Below, one piece after another: positions 10,314-20,373 of a stretch of DNA of 64,000 nt. A program made the translations under genes and the position numbers. The stretch's first letter is position 1; each line of letters starts with the position of its first letter. A model generated the notes under the pieces. It was not told the origin of the DNA, did no database searches, and worked only from the letters and a program-made list of their open reading frames with translations. Where the stretch lies: assembly GCF_000403435.2 (NCBI RefSeq), contig NZ_KE159703.1, positions 861,033-925,032 on the forward strand, written 5' to 3'. Source of the DNA: Oscillibacter sp. 1-3. GTDB taxonomy: Bacteria; Bacillota; Clostridia; Oscillospirales; Oscillospiraceae.

Positions 10314-10338
10314 TGCGGCTTAAATAAGGAGTGTGCTT

Positions 10339-11817
10339 ATGCTGGAAGAAGAATTTGGAAAACTGCTTTTAAGAGTTCAGCAGCGAAATTGCGAGGAACA
10401 GACCCTGGAGGTCAAGGCCGCCAACAAGGGATGTCCGGAGCGGCTCTATGACACGTTTTCTGCCTTTGCCAACCAGAACGAGGGCGGGATGCTTTTATTT
10501 GGTCTGGATGAAAAACAAAGGTTTGCCAAGGTCGGGGTCTATGATGCCCAGGACCTGCAAAAGAAGCTGATGGAGGTGGGCGAATCCATGACACCGGTGG
10601 TGCGTCCTGTTTTGTCTGTCTATGTGGAGGGGGCTATGCTGTTTGTGGCGGCGGAGATTCCCCCCCTGGATCTGGCAGAGCGGCCCTGCTTCAAAACAGC
10701 CCGGGGCCGGCTCAAGGGTTCCTTCATCCGGGTAGGAGACGCGGATAAGCCTATGACGGAGTATGAGGTTTACAGCTACGAGGCCTACCGCAAGCGGAGC
10801 CGGGACGATCTGCGTCCGGTGGAGGGGATCTCATTGTCCGCACTGGATCCGGTTCAACTGGAGCAGTACCTGCTGAAGCGCAAGCTGGATCGCCCCAATT
10901 TTGCCTCTGTTCCGACGGAACAGCTCTATGAACTGACCGGACTGCAAAAGGAGGGACAGTTTACCCTCACAGCGGTCCTGCTGTTTGGCCTGTATCCCCA
11001 AGCCTATTTTCCGCAGCTCAGCATTATTGCATCCCGTGTGCCGGGTACTGAGATGGGTGAAGTGGATGAAACAGGGCAGCGGTTTCTGGACAGCAAACGC
11101 ATTGAGGGCAGTCTGGTGGAAATGCTGGAGGGTGCGGTCAGCTTCCTGCGAAGTAATATGCGCATGGCTGTGCGCATTGATCCTAAAACAGGAAAGCGGC
11201 AGGATATGCCGGAATATCCCCTTGACGCCCTTCGGGAAGCGGTTTTGAACGCGCTGGTCCACCGGGATTACAGTACCCATACAGAAAATATGCCCATCCA
11301 GCTGATCATGTTTTATGACCGGGTGGAAATTCGAAACCCTGGCGGACTTTATGGGCGTTTGACGGTGGATCAACTGGGAAAGATCCAGCCGGATACCCGA
11401 AATCCGGCCGTGATCACCGCAATGGAAGCCTTGGGACAGACGGAAAACCGCTATTCCGGTATCCCAAGAATCCGCCGTGCCATGGCGGAGGCCGGCCTGC
11501 CCGAACCGGTATTCCGGGATGACCGCTGGGAATTTTCCGTCTGCCTCTATAACAAGGAGGCGGCAGAACAGCCTCCAGAACGCAAACCGGCGCTTTCCGC
11601 TGAAAAACTGCCCTTGGACGACCGCGGACTGCTTGACTTTTGCAGGACGCCCCGCACGCGAAAGGAAATTGTGCGTTTTTTGGGGATTGCCTCCGGTCAG
11701 TACGCTACCCGGCGCTACCTGGAGCCGCTGGTGAAATCCGGGATGATTTTGATGACCCTCCCGGACCGGCCCAAAAGCCCGAAGCAGACCTACCAGACAA
11801 ATCCGGATATCCGGTGA
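10339..11817 (+). CDS. AlbA_2/Schlafen-domain ATP-binding protein
   Basis: A 492-residue protein. The N-terminal AlbA_2 domain (about residues 15-140; EEQTLEVKAAN, NQNEGGMLLFGLDE, KGSFIRVGDADKPM) is followed by a GHKL-type ATPase-like C-terminal part (PLDALREAVLNALVHRDYS, MFYDRVEIRNPGG) and an end with winged-helix character (RTRKEIVRFLGIASGQYATR). Such proteins are common in defence islands and beside type I restriction genes, sometimes annotated as transcriptional regulators; the function is not settled. The ATG at 10339 has AGGAG seven bases upstream and is preferred to the GTG two codons earlier. hsdM follows after 32 bases, suggesting one operon. Confidence 0.85.
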   Translation: MLEEEFGKLLLRVQQRNCEEQTLEVKAANKGCPERLYDTFSAFANQNEGGMLLFGLDEKQRFAKVGVYDAQDLQKKLMEVGESMTPVVRPVLSVYVEGAMLFVAAEIPPLDLAERPCFKTARGRLKGSFIRVGDADKPMTEYEVYSYEAYRKRSRDDLRPVEGISLSALDPVQLEQYLLKRKLDRPNFASVPTEQLYELTGLQKEGQFTLTAVLLFGLYPQAYFPQLSIIASRVPGTEMGEVDETGQRFLDSKRIEGSLVEMLEGAVSFLRSNMRMAVRIDPKTGKRQDMPEYPLDALREAVLNALVHRDYSTHTENMPIQLIMFYDRVEIRNPGGLYGRLTVDQLGKIQPDTRNPAVITAMEALGQTENRYSGIPRIRRAMAEAGLPEPVFRDDRWEFSVCLYNKEAAEQPPERKPALSAEKLPLDDRGLLDFCRTPRTRKEIVRFLGIASGQYATRRYLEPLVKSGMILMTLPDRPKSPKQTYQTNPDIR

Positions 11818-11849
11818 TCAATCATAAAAACCAGAAAGAGAGAACCGCT

Positions 11850-13346
11850 ATGATTACAGGCGAACTGAAAAACAAGATCAACGCCCTCTGGGAGATCTTC
11901 TGGACGGGCGGCATTACCAACCCTCTGGACGTGGTGGAGCAGATGACCTACCTGATGTTCATCCACGATCTGGATGAGACAGACAATCTGCGCGCCAAGG
12001 AGAGCGCCATGCTGGGCTTGCCCTACAAGAGTATGTTCGGGGAGGAGGTCCAAATTGGGGAGCGGACTGTCCCGGGCAATCAGCTCAAGTGGTCGGTATT
12101 CCACGACTTCCCCGCCGGGAAGATGTACACCGTGGTGCAGGAGCAGGTGTTCCCCTTCATCAAGAACCTCCACGGGGACAAGGGCAGCGCCTACGCCAAG
12201 TACATGGACGACGCCATCTTCAAAATCCCCACACCGCTGATGCTGGACAAGGTTGTCACCGCCCTGGACGAGATCTACGCCCAGATGGCCCAGCTCCGGG
12301 ACGGCGACGTGCGGGGAGACGTGTATGAGTTCCTTCTGTCCAAAATCGCCACCGCCGGGGTGAATGGCCAGTTCCGCACGCCCCGGCATATCATAAAAAT
12401 GATGGTGGAGCTGATGGCCCCCGGTCCAGACGAGGTCATCTGCGACCCGGCCTGCGGTACGTCGGGCTTTCTGGTGGCGGCTGGGGAGTACCTGAAAGCC
12501 AACCGCAAGGAGGAAATCTTCTTCAACCGGGAGAAGAAAGCCCACTACATGAACGCCATGTTCCACGGCTTCGACATGGACCGCACCATGCTACGCATCG
12601 GGGCCATGAACATGATGACTCACGGGGTGGACAACCCCACCATCGAGTACCGGGACAGCCTGTCCGACCAGAACCCGGACCGTGAAAAGTACTCCCTCAT
12701 CCTGGCCAATCCCCCCTTCAAGGGCAGCCTGGACGCGGATATCGTGTCCGCCGACCTGCTGAAGCTGTGCAAAACCAAGAAGACTGAACTGCTGTTTTTG
12801 GCCCTGTTTTTGAAAATGCTCAAGGTGGGCGGGCGGTGCGCCTGTATCGTTCCGGACGGCGTGCTGTTCGGGTCGTCCAAGGCCCACCGGGATATCCGCC
12901 GGGAGCTGGTGGACAACCACCGCCTGGAGGCGGTTATCTCCATGCCCTCGGGGGTGTTCAAGCCCTACGCCGGGGTGTCCACCGGGGTACTCATCTTCAC
13001 CAAAACCGGCCACGGCGGAACGGACAAGGTGTGGTTCTACGATATGCGGGCGGACGGCTTCTCCCTGGATGATAAGCGGTCCCCCGTGGCGGAGAACGAC
13101 ATCCCCGATATCGTCGCCCGGTTCCATGACCTGGCCGGGAAGGAGGCCCGGGAGCGCACCGAGCAGTCCTTCCTGGTGCCCAGGGAGGAGATTGTGGAGA
13201 ATGGCTACGATCTGTCCATCAACAAGTACAAAAAGACCGAGTATGTCCCCGTGGAGTACCCGCCCACCAGCGAGATTTTCGTCCAGCTGCGCCAGCTGGA
13301 AGCCGAGATTCAGAAGGGACTGGAGGAATTGGAGGGGATGGTGTGA
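11850..13346 (+). CDS. hsdM: Type I restriction-modification N6-adenine methyltransferase subunit
   Basis: HsdM methylates adenine in the bipartite site chosen by HsdS. At 498 residues it is full length. The N-terminal helical domain (LWEIFWTGGITNPLDVVEQM) precedes the methyltransferase fold, with SAM motif I DPACGTSGFL at residue 199 and the catalytic NPPF at 287. The frame is open upstream of 11850, but that part overlaps the previous gene in another frame; the ATG starting MITGELKNKI is the family start. Its stop overlaps the hsdS start (TGATG). hsdS is truncated and hsdR survives only as a remnant 5 kb downstream, so methylation would need specificity from elsewhere. Confidence 0.93.
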   Translation: MITGELKNKINALWEIFWTGGITNPLDVVEQMTYLMFIHDLDETDNLRAKESAMLGLPYKSMFGEEVQIGERTVPGNQLKWSVFHDFPAGKMYTVVQEQVFPFIKNLHGDKGSAYAKYMDDAIFKIPTPLMLDKVVTALDEIYAQMAQLRDGDVRGDVYEFLLSKIATAGVNGQFRTPRHIIKMMVELMAPGPDEVICDPACGTSGFLVAAGEYLKANRKEEIFFNREKKAHYMNAMFHGFDMDRTMLRIGAMNMMTHGVDNPTIEYRDSLSDQNPDREKYSLILANPPFKGSLDADIVSADLLKLCKTKKTELLFLALFLKMLKVGGRCACIVPDGVLFGSSKAHRDIRRELVDNHRLEAVISMPSGVFKPYAGVSTGVLIFTKTGHGGTDKVWFYDMRADGFSLDDKRSPVAENDIPDIVARFHDLAGKEARERTEQSFLVPREEIVENGYDLSINKYKKTEYVPVEYPPTSEIFVQLRQLEAEIQKGLEELEGMV

Positions 13347-13491: not shown

Positions 13492-13779
13492 TCTCCTGCC
13501 GATTACGCCCGTATGCGTGAGGTGTCAGACCGGCTTTGCCGGGAGTACGCTATTTCTGTGATAGAGAACCCCGGCGAGCGGGCCAAAAACTACGCAGAAT
13601 GGCAAGCCGAGCAGAACGGCAAGCCCACCCACCGGGGCACCATCCGGGCCGACATTGACCGGGCCATCCTCGCCTCCACCACCGAGCGCGACTTTCTGCA
13701 GGTGATGGCTGGCAGTATCACCGCCGATATGAACCGGCTCTTTGCCGCCCAGGAGAAAGCGCAGAAATACTCTTTCTGA
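13492..13779 (+). pseudogene. Internal relaxase gene fragment joined to hsdS
   Basis: In the frame that ends at 13779, from about 13496, the translation reads PADYARMREVSDRLCREYAI, SVIENPGERAKNYAEWQAEQ, NGKPTHRGTIRADIDRAI, which matches the middle of MOBP-type mobilization relaxases just after the HUH domain. From about 13710 the sequence (AGSITADMNRLFAAQEKAQKY) no longer looks like the relaxase, a possible second junction. There is no start or catalytic domain. This is a different relaxase lineage from the intact one at 22090 and a scar of an earlier mobile element. Confidence 0.7.
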
Positions 13780-13820
13780 TATTGTTATCCATGGCCAGAC
13801 CCAGGACAGGGCGGCTTTTT

Positions 13821-13940
13821 TCATTCCTCAAGCAGCTTTGAAACGGGAACTTCGAGCGCATCCGCAATTCTGAACAGCGTCTTCATCGACACGCCAAAAG
13901 TCTGTGTCTTTGACGCTGCCTTGATGCTTTCCAATACATA
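13821..13940 (-). pseudogene. 3' remnant of an XRE-type regulator gene
   Basis: On the minus strand the bases translate as VLESIKAASKTQTFGVSMKT, then LFRIADALEVPVSKLLEE and a stop at 13821. The end LFRIADALEVPVSKLLEE is the usual last helix of Cro/CI-type HTH proteins. The first half is absent, cut where the AT-rich promoter region of the next gene begins. Confidence 0.6.
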
Positions 13941-13946
13941 AATTTA

Positions 13947-13975
13947 TTGACACTCCTGATGTTCAACTATATAAT
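13947..13975 (+). promoter_or_regulatory. Consensus sigma-A promoter for the HU gene
   Basis: TTGACA (13947-13952), exactly 17 bases, and TATAAT (13970-13975): a perfect consensus promoter, so strong expression of the HU gene is expected. The leader is about 78 bases. Confidence 0.85.
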
Positions 13976-14059
13976 GCAGATTTGTCCAGTCTTTTACTTG
14001 ATTGGACACACAAAATGTTATTGGCAAAGGGGTACTCTTTGCCAGAATAGGAGGAAAAT

Positions 14060-14371
14060 ATGAATAAGCAGGAATTGATCGAACGTATGGCGGGCAAGAC
14101 CGGGATGGCAAAAAAGGACTGTGGTATTGCCTTGGATGGTATGCTGTCTGCAATCACAGAGGCTTTGCAAAAGGATGACAAAATAAAGCTGACTGGCTTT
14201 GGCACTTTTGAGGTGAAGCACCGGGCCGCCAGAACAGGCCGCAATCCGCAAACCAAGGAGACTGTGGAAATTCCGGCGCAGAGCGTTCCGGTGTTTAAGG
14301 CGGGAAAGGTCTTGAAAGAAAGCATTCTTGGTAGCAGCGAGAAAAGAGTATTGTCAAAAGCTGCGCTTTAG
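14060..14371 (+). CDS. HU family DNA-binding protein
   Basis: A 103-residue HU/IHF-type protein: MNKQELIERMAGKTGMAKKD, the beta-arm region KLTGFGTFEVKHRAARTGRN, then PQTKETVEIPAQSVPVFKAG. The DNA-bending arm with the conserved RxGRNP is intact. AGGAGGAAAAT precedes the ATG. It lies beside a tyrosine recombinase and its sites, where DNA bending by HU often assists synapsis, so a cassette-specific architectural role is possible. The C-terminal tail (ESILGSSEKRVLSKAAL) is slightly longer than in chromosomal HU. Confidence 0.92.
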   Translation: MNKQELIERMAGKTGMAKKDCGIALDGMLSAITEALQKDDKIKLTGFGTFEVKHRAARTGRNPQTKETVEIPAQSVPVFKAGKVLKESILGSSEKRVLSKAAL

Positions 14372-14425
14372 TATATAATTCCTCTGTGAATAGGTGACAG
14401 GAGAAGTGGTTATTGCAGGGGGGAA

Positions 14426-15049
14426 GTGATTACACTGGATGACACCAAGACCCGGATCATCGTTGCCGCAATCAAGGCTGTACGGCAGTATGGCCTGGAA
14501 GGGGTGCGCATCCAGAACGTCAGCGAGCTGGCGGGGATTTCATCAGGAGCGATTTACCGCCACTTTGACGGCAAGGATCAACTGCTGGTGGAGTGCTTCA
14601 CTTATGTGGACAAGCAGGCGGCGGCAATCTTTGAACATTTGAAATTCAACCCGCTGCTTATGCTCACTGACCCTATGGGTGCGGTAAAGGCGCTGTGGGT
14701 GCCCTATTTTCGGTTTTGGACATCCCGCCCGGACGAAACAGTTTTTTATCACCGCTTTCGGGACAGTACGTTTTTCCCCCAGTATGACAAGAGCCGGGAT
14801 GTGACCTATTTCAAGACGTTTATTGGAATGGTTGACGTTTTCAAAAAGGTATTTCCAAGCCTGGACAAAATCAATCAGGATTTATTGTGGCTCCACGTCC
14901 TCACATCCACTGTTATGTACGCAAAGTATGTGGTGGAAGGGACGCTTCCAGACAATCAGGAAACCGAGGACACTGTGTTTCAGTTGTTAACCACTGGACT
15001 GAGCGGCTATTTGAAACCGGAGAAGCCTAAAAAATCAAGACGAAAATGA
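14426..15049 (+). CDS. TetR/AcrR family regulator
   Basis: A 207-residue regulator. The N-terminal HTH is typical: TRIIVAAIKAVRQYGLEGVR, then IQNVSELAGISSGAIYRHFD, GKDQLLVECF. The C-terminal ligand/dimer domain is of unknown type. The GTG at 14426 is the only plausible start, though its purine-rich ribosome site (GGGGGGAA) is very close. It lies between the HU and recombinase genes, with two palindromes just downstream in front of the recombinase gene, so it probably represses the recombinase. The signal it senses is unknown. Confidence 0.88.
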   Translation: MITLDDTKTRIIVAAIKAVRQYGLEGVRIQNVSELAGISSGAIYRHFDGKDQLLVECFTYVDKQAAAIFEHLKFNPLLMLTDPMGAVKALWVPYFRFWTSRPDETVFYHRFRDSTFFPQYDKSRDVTYFKTFIGMVDVFKKVFPSLDKINQDLLWLHVLTSTVMYAKYVVEGTLPDNQETEDTVFQLLTTGLSGYLKPEKPKKSRRK

Positions 15050-15079
15050 AAATGTGCCGCTGGAGGCGGTTCATTTTTA
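15043..15079 (+). terminator. Weak hairpin after tetR
   Basis: AAAATG...CATTTTT outer pairing with an inner CCGC/GCGG stem just behind the TetR stop and a short T run. It is imperfect and may only attenuate. Confidence 0.4.
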
Positions 15080-15085
15080 GTAGTT

Positions 15086-15107
15086 TGATAATGAACGTTC
15101 ACTATCA
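15086..15107. promoter_or_regulatory. TetR-type operator, near-perfect 22-bp palindrome
   Basis: The 11-base half-sites (TGATAATGAAC and GTTCACTATCA) are complements with a single mismatch, centred on TGAACGTTCA. The site follows a TTGATA hexamer, so a bound dimer would cover a promoter spacer, the classic position for a TetR repressor of the downstream recombinase gene. Confidence 0.6.
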
Positions 15108-15157
15108 TACCGGTTAAAGGCACGCTCGGTTCTCAAATTTTTTTGGCGCTAAGGGGG

Positions 15158-15172
15158 GGTGAACATTCACTA
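15158..15172. promoter_or_regulatory. Second TetR-type half-palindrome
   Basis: GTGAACATTCACTA repeats the TGAAC/TTCACTA signature of the operator at 15086-15107, about 64 bases further on (roughly six DNA turns, centre to centre 68). It lies 65 bases before the recombinase start. Confidence 0.5.
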
Positions 15173-15237
15173 ACTTTGGAATAACCTTCTTTCTATTCGG
15201 AAAACTATCTGCATCGAATACAAAGGAGATTATTGCC

Positions 15238-16098
15238 ATGTTCAGCCAGGAAGCAGCTTTCACAATTACCGCCGACCACATTTCCCAATATGCGGCGCAC
15301 CTCCAGGAACAAGAGAGAGCCAAGAACACTGTAAAGAAATATGTTCATGACCTTAACGATTTCATGTTGTTTCTGAATGGGAAAGCCGTCACAAAGGTGG
15401 CCGTGATTGCGTGGAAAGAGCATCTGGCTGATACCTATACCCCAGCCACAGTCAATTCCATGCTGGCAGCGGTCAACAGTTTTTTCCAGTTCATGGACTG
15501 GCCGAAGCTGTCTGTCAGGCCGCTGAAAGTACAGCGTCCCCTTTTCTGTGATGAAAGCCGGGAAATGACCCGCGCTGAATATGTCCGTTTGGTGAACGCG
15601 GCCCAGCGGCAGGGAAATGAACGGCTGTCCCTGCTCCTTCAAACAATTTGCGCCACAGGCATCCGGGTATCAGAACTCCGATTTATCACCGTGGACGCTG
15701 TGACCCTGGGCCGTACAGTGGTCACGAACAAGGGAAAACGGCGAACTGTCTTTCTGCCTGGGAAGCTGTGCGGGCTGCTGAAAAAGTATCTGAAAAAACA
15801 AAAAATCACCGACGGATCGGTGTTTGTGACGCGGACGGGCAAACCCCTTGACCGCTCCAATATCTGGCGGGATATGAAGGCTCTGTGTGAAAGCGCCGGG
15901 GTTGAGCCAGACAAGGTGTTCCCCCACAACCTGCGGCATCTGTTCGCCCGGACGTATTACTCGCTGGAAAAGGATTTGTCCCGGCTGGCGGATATTCTGG
16001 GCCATTCCAATGTCAGCACCACCCGCATTTATACCGCAGAGAGCGGTTTTGTTCACGCCCGACAGATGGAACGGCTGGGTCTGATCCTTACAACATAA
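15238..16098 (+). CDS. Tyrosine recombinase (probable site-specific invertase)
   Basis: A 286-residue XerD-like recombinase, complete. An N-terminal SAM-like core-binding domain (AAHLQEQERAKNTVKKYVHD, FFQFMDWPKL) precedes the catalytic domain, with Arg143 (ATGIRVSEL), a Lys in VTNKGKRR, His230-x-x-Arg233 (HNLRH), His in LGHSNVSTTR and the nucleophile Tyr265 (RIYT). AAAGGAG precedes the ATG. The last codons and stop lie inside the left inverted repeat at 16090-16113, so the gene abuts its likely substrate. The two repeats have opposite spacers, which predicts inversion of the 16114-16309 segment rather than excision. Confidence 0.92.
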   Translation: MFSQEAAFTITADHISQYAAHLQEQERAKNTVKKYVHDLNDFMLFLNGKAVTKVAVIAWKEHLADTYTPATVNSMLAAVNSFFQFMDWPKLSVRPLKVQRPLFCDESREMTRAEYVRLVNAAQRQGNERLSLLLQTICATGIRVSELRFITVDAVTLGRTVVTNKGKRRTVFLPGKLCGLLKKYLKKQKITDGSVFVTRTGKPLDRSNIWRDMKALCESAGVEPDKVFPHNLRHLFARTYYSLEKDLSRLADILGHSNVSTTRIYTAESGFVHARQMERLGLILTT

Positions 16099-16113
16099 TT
16101 TTTGTTATGTTGT
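16090..16113. repeat. Left recombination site (24 bp)
   Basis: Two perfect complementary 9-bp arms, ACAACATAA and TTATGTTGT, flank the 6-bp spacer TTTTTG. This is the standard layout of a tyrosine-recombinase core site. The site contains the stop codon of the recombinase. It is repeated in inverse orientation at 16310-16333. Confidence 0.85.
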
Positions 16114-16309
16114 TGTTTAGACCGCAACAGGTCAATATACATATCGCATTATACAGGAAAAACGGCTTTCTGACAAGTCCTTTTACAACTTAGGCATGAA
16201 GAAACTGACGGGATGCTCTCTATATTTATCTCGCCTGTCTTTTCTTGCACTTTTTTCAGATTCTCTGCGTCCTTACAGTGAAATTGGGGCGGTTGGGCTT
16301 CACTCTAAT
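16114..16309. promoter_or_regulatory. Candidate invertible promoter segment
   Basis: A 196-bp non-coding segment between the two inverted sites. It holds a strong promoter on the minus strand (16148-16176) and only a weaker plus-strand match (TTGTTT-17-TATACA at 16113-16141). Between the right site and the cyclase start there are only 40 bases without a clear promoter, so transcription of the downstream genes should depend on the orientation of this segment or on read-through. Confidence 0.75.
16148..16176 (-). promoter_or_regulatory. Strong promoter inside the invertible segment, pointing left
   Basis: On the minus strand TTGTCA (16171-16176), 17 bases, TATAAT (16148-16153): 11 of 12 consensus positions. 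As assembled it reads into the 3' end of the recombinase gene (antisense). After inversion about the spacer centres it would sit near 16270-16298 on the plus strand, with a start point about 90 bases before the cyclase gene. Confidence 0.75.
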
Positions 16310-16333
16310 ACAACATAACAAAAATTAAGTTGT
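16310..16333. repeat. Right recombination site (24 bp)
   Basis: ACAACATAA, spacer CAAAAA, and TTAAGTTGT. It is the inverse complement of the left site with one mismatch in the outer arm; the spacer is the exact complement of TTTTTG. It ends 40 bases before the GGDEF gene start. Confidence 0.85.
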
Positions 16334-16373
16334 TAATAGGCAGCTTGAGTTAAATATAGTGAGGGATATGAGT

Positions 16374-17294
16374 ATGGAAAAAATATTGATCGTGGACGAC
16401 AGCATTGTGCAGGCAGCACAGCTAAAGTCAATTATAGAAGATGAGTATGATATTACCGTCGCACAAACTGCGGAGGACGGGCTGCGTTTAGTGAGCGAGG
16501 GGGATTTTTCCCTCATTCTGCTGGATGTCGTGATGCCTGGAATGGACGGTTTTACGCTGCTGAAAATGTTGCAGGAGCAAATCGTGACTCAAAGCATCCC
16601 GGTCATCTTGATTACCAGCCTTGCAGATGTGACGAATGAGCAGCGTGGACTTGTTTTAGGAGCTGTGGATTATATTACAAAGCCATACATTCCCCTGATC
16701 GTTAAGGCAAGGGTCAACACACATATCAAACTCTACAAATATCGCAGACAGATTGAGCAGCAATCCATGACCGACCAACTGACAGGAATTGCCAACCGGC
16801 GTCGGTATGAACAATACAGCGCGACAAAATGGAGAGAAGCGATCCGCCTGCACGTTCCGTTCTCCATCTGTATGTTTGATATTGACCGCTTCAAAGTGTA
16901 TAACGATACCTTTGGCCATCCTGCCGGAGATAAGGTGATCGCTTCCGTTGCTCAGACAGCGGCGTCCTATTTGAAACGCAGTACGGATTTTCTTGCCCGC
17001 TATGGCGGCGAGGAATTTGTGGCATTGTCCCTGGGCGACAGTTCGCAGCAGATTTTTGAACACTTGAAGAAAATCCGACAGGCAGTAGAAAACCTGCACA
17101 TCCCCCATGATCCGTCTGTGGCTGAATGGGTCACGGTCAGTGTCGGAGGGGTCACGATTGTTCCTGATACGGAAAGCGCCTATGATTTTTACTTAAAAAT
17201 CGCGGACACCATGCTGTACGATGCAAAGAAAAACGGCCGGAACCGGGTCGTTTGGGCCAATGAAAGGCTGAAACAGTTGTGGGAAAAAAGGTAG
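16374..17294 (+). CDS. Response regulator with GGDEF domain (diguanylate cyclase)
   Basis: A 306-residue, two-domain cytoplasmic protein. The receiver domain (residues 1-120) has KILIVDDS, the phospho-acceptor Asp51 in LLDVVMPGMDG, and the TKPY lysine. The GGDEF domain has DQLTGIANRRRY, FDIDRFKVYNDTFGH and the active-site GGEEF at 211-215, with a product-inhibition I-site R202-S-T-D205 five residues before it. It should therefore make cyclic di-GMP under phosphorylation control with feedback. The start is the ATG at 16374, with GAGGG eight bases upstream; an earlier GTG/ATG is possible. No cognate histidine kinase is nearby. It is the first gene after the invertible promoter and is followed by a PilZ gene 42 bases later. 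Confidence 0.93.
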   Translation: MEKILIVDDSIVQAAQLKSIIEDEYDITVAQTAEDGLRLVSEGDFSLILLDVVMPGMDGFTLLKMLQEQIVTQSIPVILITSLADVTNEQRGLVLGAVDYITKPYIPLIVKARVNTHIKLYKYRRQIEQQSMTDQLTGIANRRRYEQYSATKWREAIRLHVPFSICMFDIDRFKVYNDTFGHPAGDKVIASVAQTAASYLKRSTDFLARYGGEEFVALSLGDSSQQIFEHLKKIRQAVENLHIPHDPSVAEWVTVSVGGVTIVPDTESAYDFYLKIADTMLYDAKKNGRNRVVWANERLKQLWEKR

Positions 17295-17336
17295 TCTGAC
17301 TGACATCAAAATATCAATTCATATGGGAGGTATATT

Positions 17337-18032
17337 GTGAGCTTATTGGAGCTTTTCAGAAAAAGGGCAAAAGAACGGCCACCTCAAGAGGATAAAGATA
17401 CAAATGGCACAGAAGAACTCGATATTTATTCGGGTATGCGGGTGGAAGTAACAACCGCCGCAGGACAGATACTCTTTGTGGCAAAGCTGATGGGCCTGCA
17501 TGGGGACAAGGCGGAGCTGCACCAATATTCGGAGGCCGCGATTGTCAAGGATGTTGAAACCATCCATGCCAGGATCAGAGGATATAGCGACTATGAGCGC
17601 AAAGCGGTCTATATGGAGGGCATAATTACACCCGGCCCCAAGCATATATGGCAAGTGGAGGAGCTGACCATCGTCCGCGTGGGAAATGACCGTGCCTTTT
17701 TCCGCCTGACCACAAACCTTGACGCCACCGCCACCATGTTCAGCGGATTGGCAATGGGAGAAAAGCCCTGCAAGCTGCTGAATATCAGTGTGGGCGGGGC
17801 CAGCGTCAGCTCGGAGTACAGATACCACGAGGGAGACAAATTTCTGCTGAAGGTCAGGCTGTTGGAGGACAGGCCGGAATCGGCCATGTTCAGCCAAATC
17901 GTGCGCGTTGTAGAAAAGGACGAGGGAAAATTCGAGTACGGGTGCCGATTTTTGGAATTGACCGAAGTCGATCAGGAACAAATAACACGGAATATTTTTG
18001 CAGCCCAGCGCCAAAAAAGGGGACGTTCCTAA
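17337..18032 (+). CDS. PilZ domain protein, probable cyclic-di-GMP receptor
   Basis: A 231-residue protein with YcgR-like plan. The N-terminal half (MRVEVTTAAGQILFVAKLMG, EGIITPGPKHIWQVEELT) resembles the YcgR-N beta-barrel. The C-terminal PilZ domain carries both ligand motifs: R119-AFF-R123 (RxxxR) and N149-I-S-V-G-G154 (NxSxxG). GGAGGTATATT precedes the GTG start. It directly follows the cyclase gene, so producer and receptor are co-expressed. Its target is unknown; flagella, secretion or surface structures are usual partners. Confidence 0.85.
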   Translation: MSLLELFRKRAKERPPQEDKDTNGTEELDIYSGMRVEVTTAAGQILFVAKLMGLHGDKAELHQYSEAAIVKDVETIHARIRGYSDYERKAVYMEGIITPGPKHIWQVEELTIVRVGNDRAFFRLTTNLDATATMFSGLAMGEKPCKLLNISVGGASVSSEYRYHEGDKFLLKVRLLEDRPESAMFSQIVRVVEKDEGKFEYGCRFLELTEVDQEQITRNIFAAQRQKRGRS

Positions 18033-18063
18033 ACATTCGTGAAAACATAAAGGAGAGTAGAAA

Positions 18064-18357
18064 ATGAGTATGTTCTATCGCCATAATCGCGGCGGCAAGC
18101 GGCTCCAAAGAAAACCAAAGTCTGAAAACAATTCAGGAGCACGGCTTGCCGCGCTCCTTTTGTGTTTGTCCATGCTGATGGGCTTTCTCCCCGCGCTGGC
18201 ATCTGCGGCAGACGATGAGGAAAAACTTTCCAGCATTGTGACGTTTGAAAGCATTTCCCTTCACTACGCTGGTGCTGACGGTCAGCCGGAGGCTGCTGCC
18301 ATTCAAAATGGCGCATTGATCGGACGAGATAAACAGTTAGCTTTGCGTTATACATAG
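18064..18357 (+). pseudogene. 5' end of a secreted surface protein gene, truncated
   Basis: After AGGAGAG the frame starts MSMFYRHNRGGKRLQRKPKS, followed by a long hydrophobic stretch ARLAALLLCLSMLMGFLPAL and the signal-peptidase-like ASAADDEE. This is an extended N-terminal signal of the kind seen on large cell-wall proteins. Only about 50 mature residues follow (IVTFESISLHYAGADGQPEA) before a stop, where the sequence joins hsdR remnant coding. The rest of the gene appears deleted. It is the third gene after the invertible promoter, so the phase-variable output was probably a surface protein. Confidence 0.65.
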
Positions 18358-19041
18358 TGTAGCCAACATCCCGGCGATTCAGAAGCAGGCTCCGCTGATT
18401 GACAAGCTCCTCCATACCAACTAACTGGACGATGCGGAGATCTATGAGTTTGAACACATCCGGGAGAGACTGCGGGATCTGATCAAGTATATCCCGTGGA
18501 ACTGGCTCATTATACCACTAATTTTGACGATGAAGTTTTGTCCATGGACTGGAAGAAGTCAGAGCTGGAGAACAATGATTTACAGAACTACAAAGCCAAA
18601 GCGGAGTTCTATGTCCGCCAGCACCAGGACGAGGTGGTGATTGCCAAGCTGAAAGGAAACGTCCCACTGACCCAGGAGGACGTTGGAGCGCTGGAGCGCA
18701 TCCTCTGGAGCGAGGTGGGCTCCAGAGAGGACTATGAAGCGGAGGTCGGCGCCAAGCCCTTGGGGGAGTTCGTCCGGGAGATCGTGGGCCTGGACATGAG
18801 AGCGGCGAAAGAGGCCTTTGCGGATTACCTCAATAACGCAAATCTGGACAGCCGGCAGATTTACTTTGTCAACCAGATCGTGGAGTACATTGTGCGCAAC
18901 GGTATGATGAAAGACCTGTCCGTTCTCCAGGAACCACCCTTCACCGACCAGGGCAGCGTGGTGGAGGTGTTCACCGACCTGTCCCTGTGGCTGGGAATCA
19001 AAGCGGTGATCGACAGGATCAACTCCAATGCCGCAGTGTGA
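18341..19041 (+). pseudogene. hsdR: 3' remnant of the type I restriction endonuclease gene
   Basis: From 18359 the translation reads VANIPAIQKQAPLIDKLLHT, then a stop (TAA at 18422-18424), then LDDAEIYEFEHIRERLRDLI. A frameshift near 18494 leads to ELAHYTTNFDDEVLSMDWKK and on to the end GSVVEVFTDLSLWLGIKAVI. This is the EcoEI-type C-terminal domain of HsdR, which contacts the methylase core. The nuclease and DEAD-box motor are gone. With hsdM and the hsdS fragment upstream it shows that 13491-18358 has replaced most of hsdS and hsdR. A GTG at 18496 could start a 181-residue fragment. Confidence 0.85.
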
Positions 19042-19052
19042 ATGTAACAATT

Positions 19053-19098
19053 TAAAGACCTGGGGCTGGATCACATTGATCAAAACCCCAGGTCTTTA
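19053..19098. terminator. Terminator after the hsdR remnant
   Basis: TAAAGACCTGGGG and its exact complement CCCCAGGTCTTTA flank a 20-base loop, followed by TACTTAATC. It lies between the hsdR remnant and the convergent minus-strand gene. Confidence 0.7.
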
Positions 19099-19137
19099 TA
19101 CTTAATCACAGATCTGATTCGGTGAAACGTATTCCGG

Positions 19138-20373
19138 CTATTTGCTGTATTGATCTTTCAAACTCTGGTGTCCCTCCTGATCCTTCCGGATTAGTTCCTC
19201 CGCAGTCAAATACTGCCACTGTGGATCGTCACTCGGCTTACTGAGATCAAGGAGCATTAGCGATGAGGGGTATTGCCGCTCAGGGTCAAAGTCCAGATCG
19301 GCAGCTACCCGTTTTTGCCAAATGCTTTCCTCTGGCGGCAGCTCCTGCTTGAGCGTATCATAGCTGGTCAGCTCGTGAGTGGTGTCGATACGGCGCAGAA
19401 ATTCTCTGGCCTCAATTTTTCCGGCCATATAATCCCGGCGTGCTTGACGGGCGTTTTTCTCCCACACATCGTACTGTATCACTGTCATAGGAATCAGCCG
19501 GTCCCGCTGATTCTCCGGCGCGTCCTGATAGCGCAGCATTCTGGCATACATCCGGTCCCGCAGCTGCTTGAACAGTTTGAGGGCATCGTCCTGCTCCGGA
19601 CCTTTTTTGCGTTTGAGGTTGGCCCCCCGCTTTTTACAGCTTTGACCGTCAAAGATTCGGTCACAGTAGCGGGTTGCCGCCTGAGTTCTGGGGATGAAAT
19701 AATTCCAGCAGTAATCACACCGGGCAATGCGCTGTTTCTCCTGCCGAAAGTACAGCAGAAGTTCGATCAGGCGAAGCTGGAACACAGAACCAACACAAAG
19801 TTGTAGAGGAGCATCCCCGTACCCGTCCAGATGGGCGGGGTCACAGAATGCGGCAATCTCAGGATACGCGTTATGCAGTTTCGCAAACCGCTCCTGCTGG
19901 GTGGCCCGCTCCGTCCCGTCGAAGGTCATCTCCATGATATTGCGAAGCCGGATCTGTGTGCGGATGGGAAGTTCCAAAACCTGGAGCAGGCGCTGTCCGG
20001 CCCGGAGGAGAAAGATGGGCGAACCGTCATCCTGCATCCGCAGCGCCTGATCCAGCAAGCTCCCCAGTACAAAAAAGCTGAGTGGGTCGATTTCCCGGAG
20101 CGTGGAGGGGAGCAGCAGCGCCTCAGCGGTCAAGTCCTCCAAATCCGATTCCGGTACATCCAGCCGTTCTGCAAAGAGCGGATGTTCCTCATACAGCCGC
20201 TGGATTTCCCGGCGGTAGGCTGTGTAGTCCATCTCCGCTGCGGCAACCAGGTCTTCCGCGGGAGTGATCAAAGGAAGGTGCTTCTCTGGTCCATACGCTC
20301 CGGACATCACAACACAAAATTTTCCGTCAACCCCGGTCTCGATCCAGAGGCCGGGGGATTTTTTGTCTGCCAT
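19138..20373 (-). CDS. DUF6076-like protein with zinc-finger motif
   Basis: A 411-residue protein common on Firmicute mobile elements and, as far as recognised, of the DUF6076 type. A cysteine cluster RCDYCWNYFIPRTQAATRYC followed by GQSCKKRG forms a probable zinc finger at about residues 215-250, similar to the CGNR-type finger. No enzyme motif was seen. GGGAGGGAGCGGT precedes the ATG. It diverges from the ATPase gene; a TTTCTT-17-TACAAT promoter lies just upstream on the minus strand (-10 at 20422-20427). The function is unknown. Confidence 0.65.
   Translation of the reverse strand: MADKKSPGLWIETGVDGKFCVVMSGAYGPEKHLPLITPAEDLVAAAEMDYTAYRREIQRLYEEHPLFAERLDVPESDLEDLTAEALLLPSTLREIDPLSFFVLGSLLDQALRMQDDGSPIFLLRAGQRLLQVLELPIRTQIRLRNIMEMTFDGTERATQQERFAKLHNAYPEIAAFCDPAHLDGYGDAPLQLCVGSVFQLRLIELLLYFRQEKQRIARCDYCWNYFIPRTQAATRYCDRIFDGQSCKKRGANLKRKKGPEQDDALKLFKQLRDRMYARMLRYQDAPENQRDRLIPMTVIQYDVWEKNARQARRDYMAGKIEAREFLRRIDTTHELTSYDTLKQELPPEESIWQKRVAADLDFDPERQYPSSLMLLDLSKPSDDPQWQYLTAEELIRKDQEGHQSLKDQYSK

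Follow-up and report, generated by a model that had tools for sequence, protein, structure and literature searches.

Phase variation usually switches surface structures, and in the promoter invertons of Bacteroides a promoter is flipped by site-specific recombination. Inversion of a promoter next to a tyrosine recombinase gene is an established mechanism. Here, such an arrangement is described in a 64,000-nucleotide stretch of Oscillibacter sp. 1-3 (the whole stretch is called the window), in which a short segment bounded by two inverted sites lies between a tyrosine recombinase gene and an operon headed by a diguanylate cyclase, which is predicted to make the biofilm signal cyclic di-GMP (c-di-GMP). 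Bacteroides belongs to another phylum and its invertons have other targets.

Cases closer to this locus come from the Clostridia. The pdcB and pdcC switches of Clostridioides difficile are invertible promoters before c-di-GMP phosphodiesterase genes (PMC9286219). They resemble the window in their short inverted repeats (pdcB, 174 bp with 19-bp repeats), in the c-di-GMP enzyme gene that comes next and in a reference orientation that is OFF; they differ in the enzyme, a phosphodiesterase whose gene lies 840 bp away and whose GGDEF domain is degenerate (PMC9286219). The GGDEF domain encoded here is apparently intact. A further difference is that the recombinase gene in the window stands directly beside the switch. 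RecV is reportedly encoded elsewhere in C. difficile, away from the switch. The cmr switch of the same species is likewise an invertible, c-di-GMP-linked element before a signalling operon, but its target is a phosphorelay-type system and its c-di-GMP riboswitch lies 5' of both operon and switch (PMC6837544).

In the hCom2 gut community, inverton group 139 and invertase group 35 comprise 33 invertons, 32 of them in Clostridia, that are tied to a neighbouring tyrosine recombinase; in two example invertons of group 139 the orientation changes with passage or differs with attachment (PMC11892184). Class and spacing agree with the present segment, as the repeats of these two examples are 205 and 227 bp apart by our arithmetic, while the words 'diguanylate' and 'GGDEF' are absent from the main text of that study (PMC11892184). 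A genome-wide inversion survey offers another near case (PMC5903667), and phosphodiesterases are named in a review as the link between phase variation and c-di-GMP (PMC11868660). Within the open-licence PMC literature searched, neither a phase-variable, apparently active diguanylate cyclase nor a cyclase-receptor-adhesin operon was found as the target of such a switch. The locus in the window is real and very probably functions as an invertible promoter, by a mechanism already known but with an operon for c-di-GMP synthesis, reception and adhesion as its unusual target. We put at roughly 0.8 the probability that its promoter segment, predicted to be flipped by the adjacent recombinase, would switch the cyclase gene and the PilZ gene behind it on and off.

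Two inverted sites around a promoter-like sequence

The recombinase gene (15238..16098, + strand) encodes an intact tyrosine recombinase of 286 aa with a Phage_integrase match (1.3e-28) and GIR, HNLR, GH and IYT motifs. Its stop codon TAA (16096-16098) falls inside the left 9-bp arm of the left recombination site, ACAACATAA-TTTTTG-TTATGTTGT (16090..16113, + strand). The right site (16310..16333, - strand) reads ACAACATAA-CAAAAA-TTAAGTTGT on the + strand. Repeat and pattern searches both recovered the two sites, which form an inverted pair with 24-nt arms, 96% complementarity (23/24) and a gap of 196 nt, each laid out as 9 + 6 + 9. In 200 dinucleotide shuffles of 15900-16500, with arms allowed 60-400 nt apart, the best 24-nt pair did not exceed 18/24. 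The anatomy proposed in the initial annotation, namely two 24-bp inverse-complement sites with one mismatch, built of 9-bp arms around a 6-bp spacer, the left one overlapping the stop of the recombinase gene, is therefore borne out in each particular. The site pattern ACAACWTAANNNNNNTTANGTTGT had just two matches in the genome (12 contigs of a 4.47-Mb assembly, 94.66% complete), both at the 16090-16333 switch, and the reversed-pattern control gave zero matches in the same genome. Related sites outside this pattern also exist there, on contig 11.

The inner arms of the two sites are identical, and the single mismatch lies in the outer right arm, as might be expected if inner arms had repeatedly been exchanged by recombination. 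The adjacent recombinase would act on the 24-nt sites with strand exchange in the 6-bp core, and the segment predicted to invert, core to core, is 16099..16324, as suggested by the site anatomy and by the fit of two related loci, L039 and L040, to exchange within the 6-bp core. There is no gene between the two sites. Inside the segment, a promoter-like TTGTCA-17-TATAAT sequence (16148..16176) lies on the minus strand, where it reads from 16176 to 16148, matches 11/12 consensus positions and faces away from the REC-GGDEF gene, as had been claimed. The same or a similar sequence in the same direction was present in 12/12 loci, again as a consensus match and a prediction from sequence. The start of the cyclase gene is best set at ATG 16374 (MEKILIVDD), since relatives begin alike, L081 with one change. 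Therefore, by coordinate arithmetic, inversion would place the end of the -10 element 98 bp upstream of this ATG; the earlier claim of a placement upstream of the cyclase stands, and its distance of 'about 90 bp' is adjusted accordingly.

A hairpin followed by a T run (16206..16243, + strand) lies in the same segment and is a weak, possibly terminator-like candidate toward the cyclase. Its fold z over 16190-16252 was -2.26 on the + strand and -2.67 on the - strand; the corresponding values were -1.76 in L039 (+), +0.78 in L041 and +0.60 in L121. It is missing from the 9 terminator-like sites of the consensus scan. Among 64 family segments, the hairpin-plus-T was better on the + strand in 20/36 'away', 3/5 'toward' and 14/23 unclear segments, and better on the minus strand in 6, 2 and 8, respectively. 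On these figures a conserved terminator as part of an OFF lock is suggestive at most: z is not significant in L041 and L121, and the strand has no clear link to promoter direction. An Rfam scan of 13500-19200 for known RNA elements gave no match up to E = 1.

Signs of inversion among relatives and the assembled orientation

Two pairs of related loci differ in ways that match site-specific inversion exactly. L039 and L040 share the operon and have three sites each. A 17-bp piece occupies the interval from site 1 to site 2 in one locus; in the other it is found, inverted, in the interval from site 2 to site 3. When two inversions in succession are modelled through the 6-bp core of the sites, L039 turns into L040: ungapped alignment then reaches 578/582, against 537/623 with no inversion and 493/617 or 470/605 with a single one. 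The event order tried for this conversion would include an intermediate with the promoter facing the cyclase. In the second pair, L063 and L095, both labelled Anaerotruncus colihominis, the loci are 91% identical over 4.46 kb and hold a related segment in opposite orientations; over 257 bp (89.9%) the segment aligns to the opposite strand, and its flanks align to the same strand. The promoter-like sequence of L063 faces away, that of L095 toward. These two cases support the initial annotation in its core claim of tyrosine-recombinase sites around an away-facing promoter. Related genomes are not fixed in one orientation with diverged repeats either: close relatives keep the repeats, and L063 and L095 are opposed.

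Inverted repeats at the recombinase end are also a feature of the family, being present in 64/72 loci with a related recombinase and at 3/335 control ends, which belong to open frames of at least 200 codons in the same loci and are frames rather than proven genes. By our own reading of the listing, the left repeat begins no later than the end of the stop codon in 35/64 loci. The 72-locus set skips copies of the own locus (L001-L003, L102), merges loci whose recombinase genes share their last 250 bp without a difference, and omits hits that end before residue 270 or have less than 350 bp downstream; L095 falls outside it and is treated apart. The wide searches scored part of each genome's candidates.

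It could be supposed that the sites are attachment sites through which a mobile cassette integrates or excises, and the relaxase and large serine recombinase near the locus in the window and a Tn916-type integrase domain in L137 would suit this explanation. The inverted geometry of the sites, 196 bp apart with no gene inside, disfavours it, as do the L039/L040 and L063/L095 cases, which fit inversion and not insertion; this possibility is considered very improbable.

Three sites rather than two were seen at L039:6040-6330 and L040:5208-5490, at L009, L046, L047, L055, L056, L059 and L060, and at L124 of the own genome. Three-site switches permit nested inversions and the moving of a short piece between ends. 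L124, on contig 11, holds two nearby copies of a 71%-identical recombinase; one has three sites and precedes the gene of a surface protein that is 2474 aa long or longer, and behind the other the sequence turns into a run of N. L095 has a duplication of about 300 bp that includes one site. Past the L063 switch, and with a hairpin between, the first large gene on the + strand (L063:7548-8936; also in L095) resembles that of a tryptophanase-type lyase.

In the operon itself, the assembled orientation is predicted to be OFF. Strong promoter calls in the 64 family segments numbered 31 away and 3 toward, compared with 25 and 34 in 640 shuffles; all calls, away/toward/unclear, came to 36/5/23 or 35/5/24 between scripts because segment edges differ, and in these tallies related loci are not independent and assemblies give the majority state. 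The assemblies suggest a default-OFF, rare-ON bias across the family, which is not a measured rate. The excess of away-facing calls (31/34 strong calls) would also accord with a promoter whose working arrangement is to face the recombinase gene, giving RNA antisense to its 3' end, so that the segment mainly tunes the recombinase and not the cyclase. A role confined to the recombinase leaves the many surface and signalling proteins downstream of related switches unexplained, however, and the promoter of L095 faces its downstream side; we regard this alternative as improbable.

Inversion as a switch of the cyclase operon remains the preferred reading, and several observations count against it. 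The promoter-like sequence faces away in 12/12 assemblies that have recombinase, segment and cyclase (the window, L033-L037, L039-L042, L081 and L119), and an ON-orientation copy of the operon was not seen among them. Here L119 has only the last 43 recombinase residues on its contig, and L081 has recombinase, segment and cyclase with no PilZ or adhesin match; L038 and L043 (recombinase 91% and 86%) were not counted, as their contigs end before the segment. Promoter direction is unclear in 23-24 of the 64 family segments, and 8 of the 72 loci with a related recombinase lack a repeat by the criteria used. The promoter at 16148..16176 is a prediction from a consensus match, and promoter-like sites are not in excess in the scanned region (5, against 3.8 +/- 1.9 in shuffles); the call therefore relies on match quality and conservation, not on site count. 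In addition, the stretch fetched for L121 lacks a recombinase but has an intact cyclase gene behind an 'away' segment (73% over 111 bp) whose sites, read by eye, are decayed; expression of the cyclase may thus have sources besides the segment promoter. L128 resembles L121 by eye, its cyclase being cut by the contig end.

The single orientation of the 12 assemblies could also be read as a once-working switch now locked OFF in this strain, its sites and recombinase persisting after adhesin and sortase were lost and its promoter no longer turning. In line with this, the adhesin gene in the window is cut to 97 aa with the end of a restriction-enzyme gene (EcoEI_R_C) adjoining. On the other hand, the recombinase, both sites, the promoter-like sequence and the motifs of cyclase and PilZ protein are all intact, the recombinase recurs with 100% identity in L033-L037 and L042, and the related L039/L040 pair fits two inversions. 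A locked state is judged unlikely, although it is the least unlikely of the alternatives to a working switch.

The predicted target operon and its TetR-type neighbour

The cyclase gene (16374..17294, + strand) encodes a REC-GGDEF protein (GGDEF 4.8e-40, Response_reg 6.6e-23; RSTDFLARYGGEEF) with a GGEEF motif and an RxxD inhibitory site. The GG(D/E)EF active site, RxxD and the receiver aspartate occur in 14/14 copies, those of the window and 13 relatives, and the enzyme is apparently active. It is followed by a gene (17337..18032, + strand) for a PilZ protein (PilZ 2.6e-13), a predicted c-di-GMP receptor, whose RxxxR and NxSxxG motifs read RAFFR and NISVGG; motifs of the RxxxR and (N/D)xSxxG type are present in 6/6 copies (the window and 5 relatives), from which c-di-GMP binding is predicted. 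Next comes a truncated adhesin gene (18064..18357, + strand) that retains the N-terminal end alone, 97 aa with 88% identity to residues 1-98 of the L042 adhesin piece; with that piece as query, 18064..18357 is the sole match in the own genome. The adhesin match stops after 97 residues in L034, L036 and L037 as well as in the window, and the 181-aa gene after the remnant is EcoEI_R_C in the window, with near-identical open reading frames in these three loci. Because the adhesin stops after 97 codons, the switch here is predicted to control cyclase and PilZ only.

Relatives hold fuller forms of the operon. The order cyclase-PilZ-adhesin occurs in L137, L138 and L119, with a sortase gene added in L137 and L119. 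The L137 adhesin has 1446 aa, begins with what by eye resembles a signal peptide, contains collagen-binding and SpaA domains and ends in IPQTGD; a sortase follows. L138 has a matching adhesin of 1408 aa, behind which no sortase gene was found, and L119 encodes what looks like another such protein, 1439 aa long and ending in VPQTGD, followed by a sortase. The same flip in relatives would also switch the sortase-motif adhesin and, in two of them, its sortase.

Upstream of the recombinase gene lies a gene (14426..15049, + strand) for a TetR-family regulator (Pfam TetR_N 1.6e-11). Between the two, a TetR-operator-like palindrome, TGATAATGAACGTTCACTATCA (15086..15107), was flagged by the palindrome script, its function being a prediction, and a second operator-like site, GTGAACATTCAC (15159..15170), was predicted by eye ahead of the recombinase, the script not having flagged it. 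Sites like GTGAACATTCAC precede the recombinase gene in L039, L040 and L041 (by eye) and in L043 and L081 (script-flagged). AACGTT-type palindromes, part script-flagged and part by eye, stand ahead of the recombinase in the window and in L034, L036, L039-L041, L043 and L081. The TetR gene and the operator-like sites suggest that recombinase supply is regulated. Four further genera of the family have loci (L111, L112, L113, L114, L121, L122, L128) in which TetR and cyclase genes are found together and a recombinase match is lacking; in loci without a recombinase, AACGTT-type palindromes lie ahead of the cyclase. This placement, before the recombinase or, where that gene is lacking, before the cyclase, suggests a shift in TetR control, formerly exerted directly on the cyclase and now on the recombinase. 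PilZ is present in 5/7 of these recombinase-free loci as fetched and was not seen in the fetched stretch of L112 and L128; L111 and L112 have too little space for the segment. The PilZ, adhesin and sortase operon, the truncation of the adhesin and the TetR gene with its operator-like sites go beyond what the initial annotation had described.

Type I restriction-modification genes flank the cassette, with N6_Mtase and HsdM_N domains at 11640-13346 and an EcoEI_R_C end at 18496-19041, as if the cassette had replaced the middle of that locus. A protein with AlbA_2 (Schlafen-type) and HATPase_c_4 domains (window 10333-11817), possibly the product of a defence or regulator gene, adjoins the methylase gene. 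The cassette is followed in the window by a relaxase and a large serine recombinase; MobA/MobL is found on the same locus in L033, and the Tn916-type integrase domain of L137 lies 2.3 kb past the sortase. More than one kind of element appears to carry the operon. Viral contigs searched with the right site gave 0 matches and with the recombinase 4 loci, of which L129 is apparently, from its length and identity, the L039 contig; none of the plasmid and phage records covers most of the cassette. An order-level DNA search matched 4/394 genomes including the own one, the other three not over the segment, and a family-level search matched 13/400, of which G000, G310, G396 and G381 matched over the whole query.

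Predicted c-di-GMP signalling and the wider family of switches

The ON state would raise c-di-GMP, sensed by the co-encoded PilZ protein and possibly also read by paired c-di-GMP riboswitches before surface-protein genes. The own genome has four GGDEF matches, four PilZ matches and one EAL match, and carries a separate cyclase-PilZ pair on contig 5 that is 62% and 40% identical to the switch-side pair. Six c-di-GMP-I riboswitches scored above the cut-off in this genome, arranged as three adjacent pairs (L133, L134, L135), each about 40 bp before a large surface-protein-like gene (start codons chosen by hand). Two of the proteins have SLH domains, and the third, without a Pfam match, ends in PKTGD; features of the L133-L135 genes include SLH, VWA or a PKTGD-type end. 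Since the riboswitch pairs precede surface-protein-like genes, a change in c-di-GMP would probably be felt at the cell surface despite the loss of the adhesin.

Related switches precede other signalling genes, encoding GGDEF (L056), GGDEF-EAL (L064), Hpt (L044) and histidine kinase proteins (L059 and L017; L087 further downstream). Chemotaxis genes for CheW (L061, L065) and methyl-accepting chemotaxis proteins (MCP; L053, L127) lie directly behind switches of the same recombinase family, and surface proteins are found behind others, e.g., L046, L051 and L055. Seventeen targets were checked by Pfam; these were chosen, not sampled, and give no rates.

A broader picture, which we hold only tentatively and consider somewhat less probable than its contrary, is that of a transferable 'settle-down' cassette. 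One flip would turn on cyclase, receptor, wall-anchored adhesin and sortase in one operon, a TetR-type sensor acting on the promoter of the recombinase gene would gate the flip rate, the switch would be OFF at rest, and c-di-GMP would relay the decision to riboswitch-controlled surface proteins. The window strain would then carry a shortened form with the signal-making half only.

The predicted target of the switch is the synthesis of a global second messenger, and a random flip in one cell could shift its whole lifestyle. In the precedents found in C. difficile, the genes that flip break c-di-GMP down; the gene predicted to flip here is one for its synthesis, and it lies near mobile-element genes in probable gut commensals. 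The 'away' bias in the assemblies suggests a default-OFF, rare-ON strategy. Beyond this locus, the presence of the recombinase family before surface proteins, chemotaxis proteins (CheW, MCP) and other GGDEF proteins offers a ready set of candidate switches.
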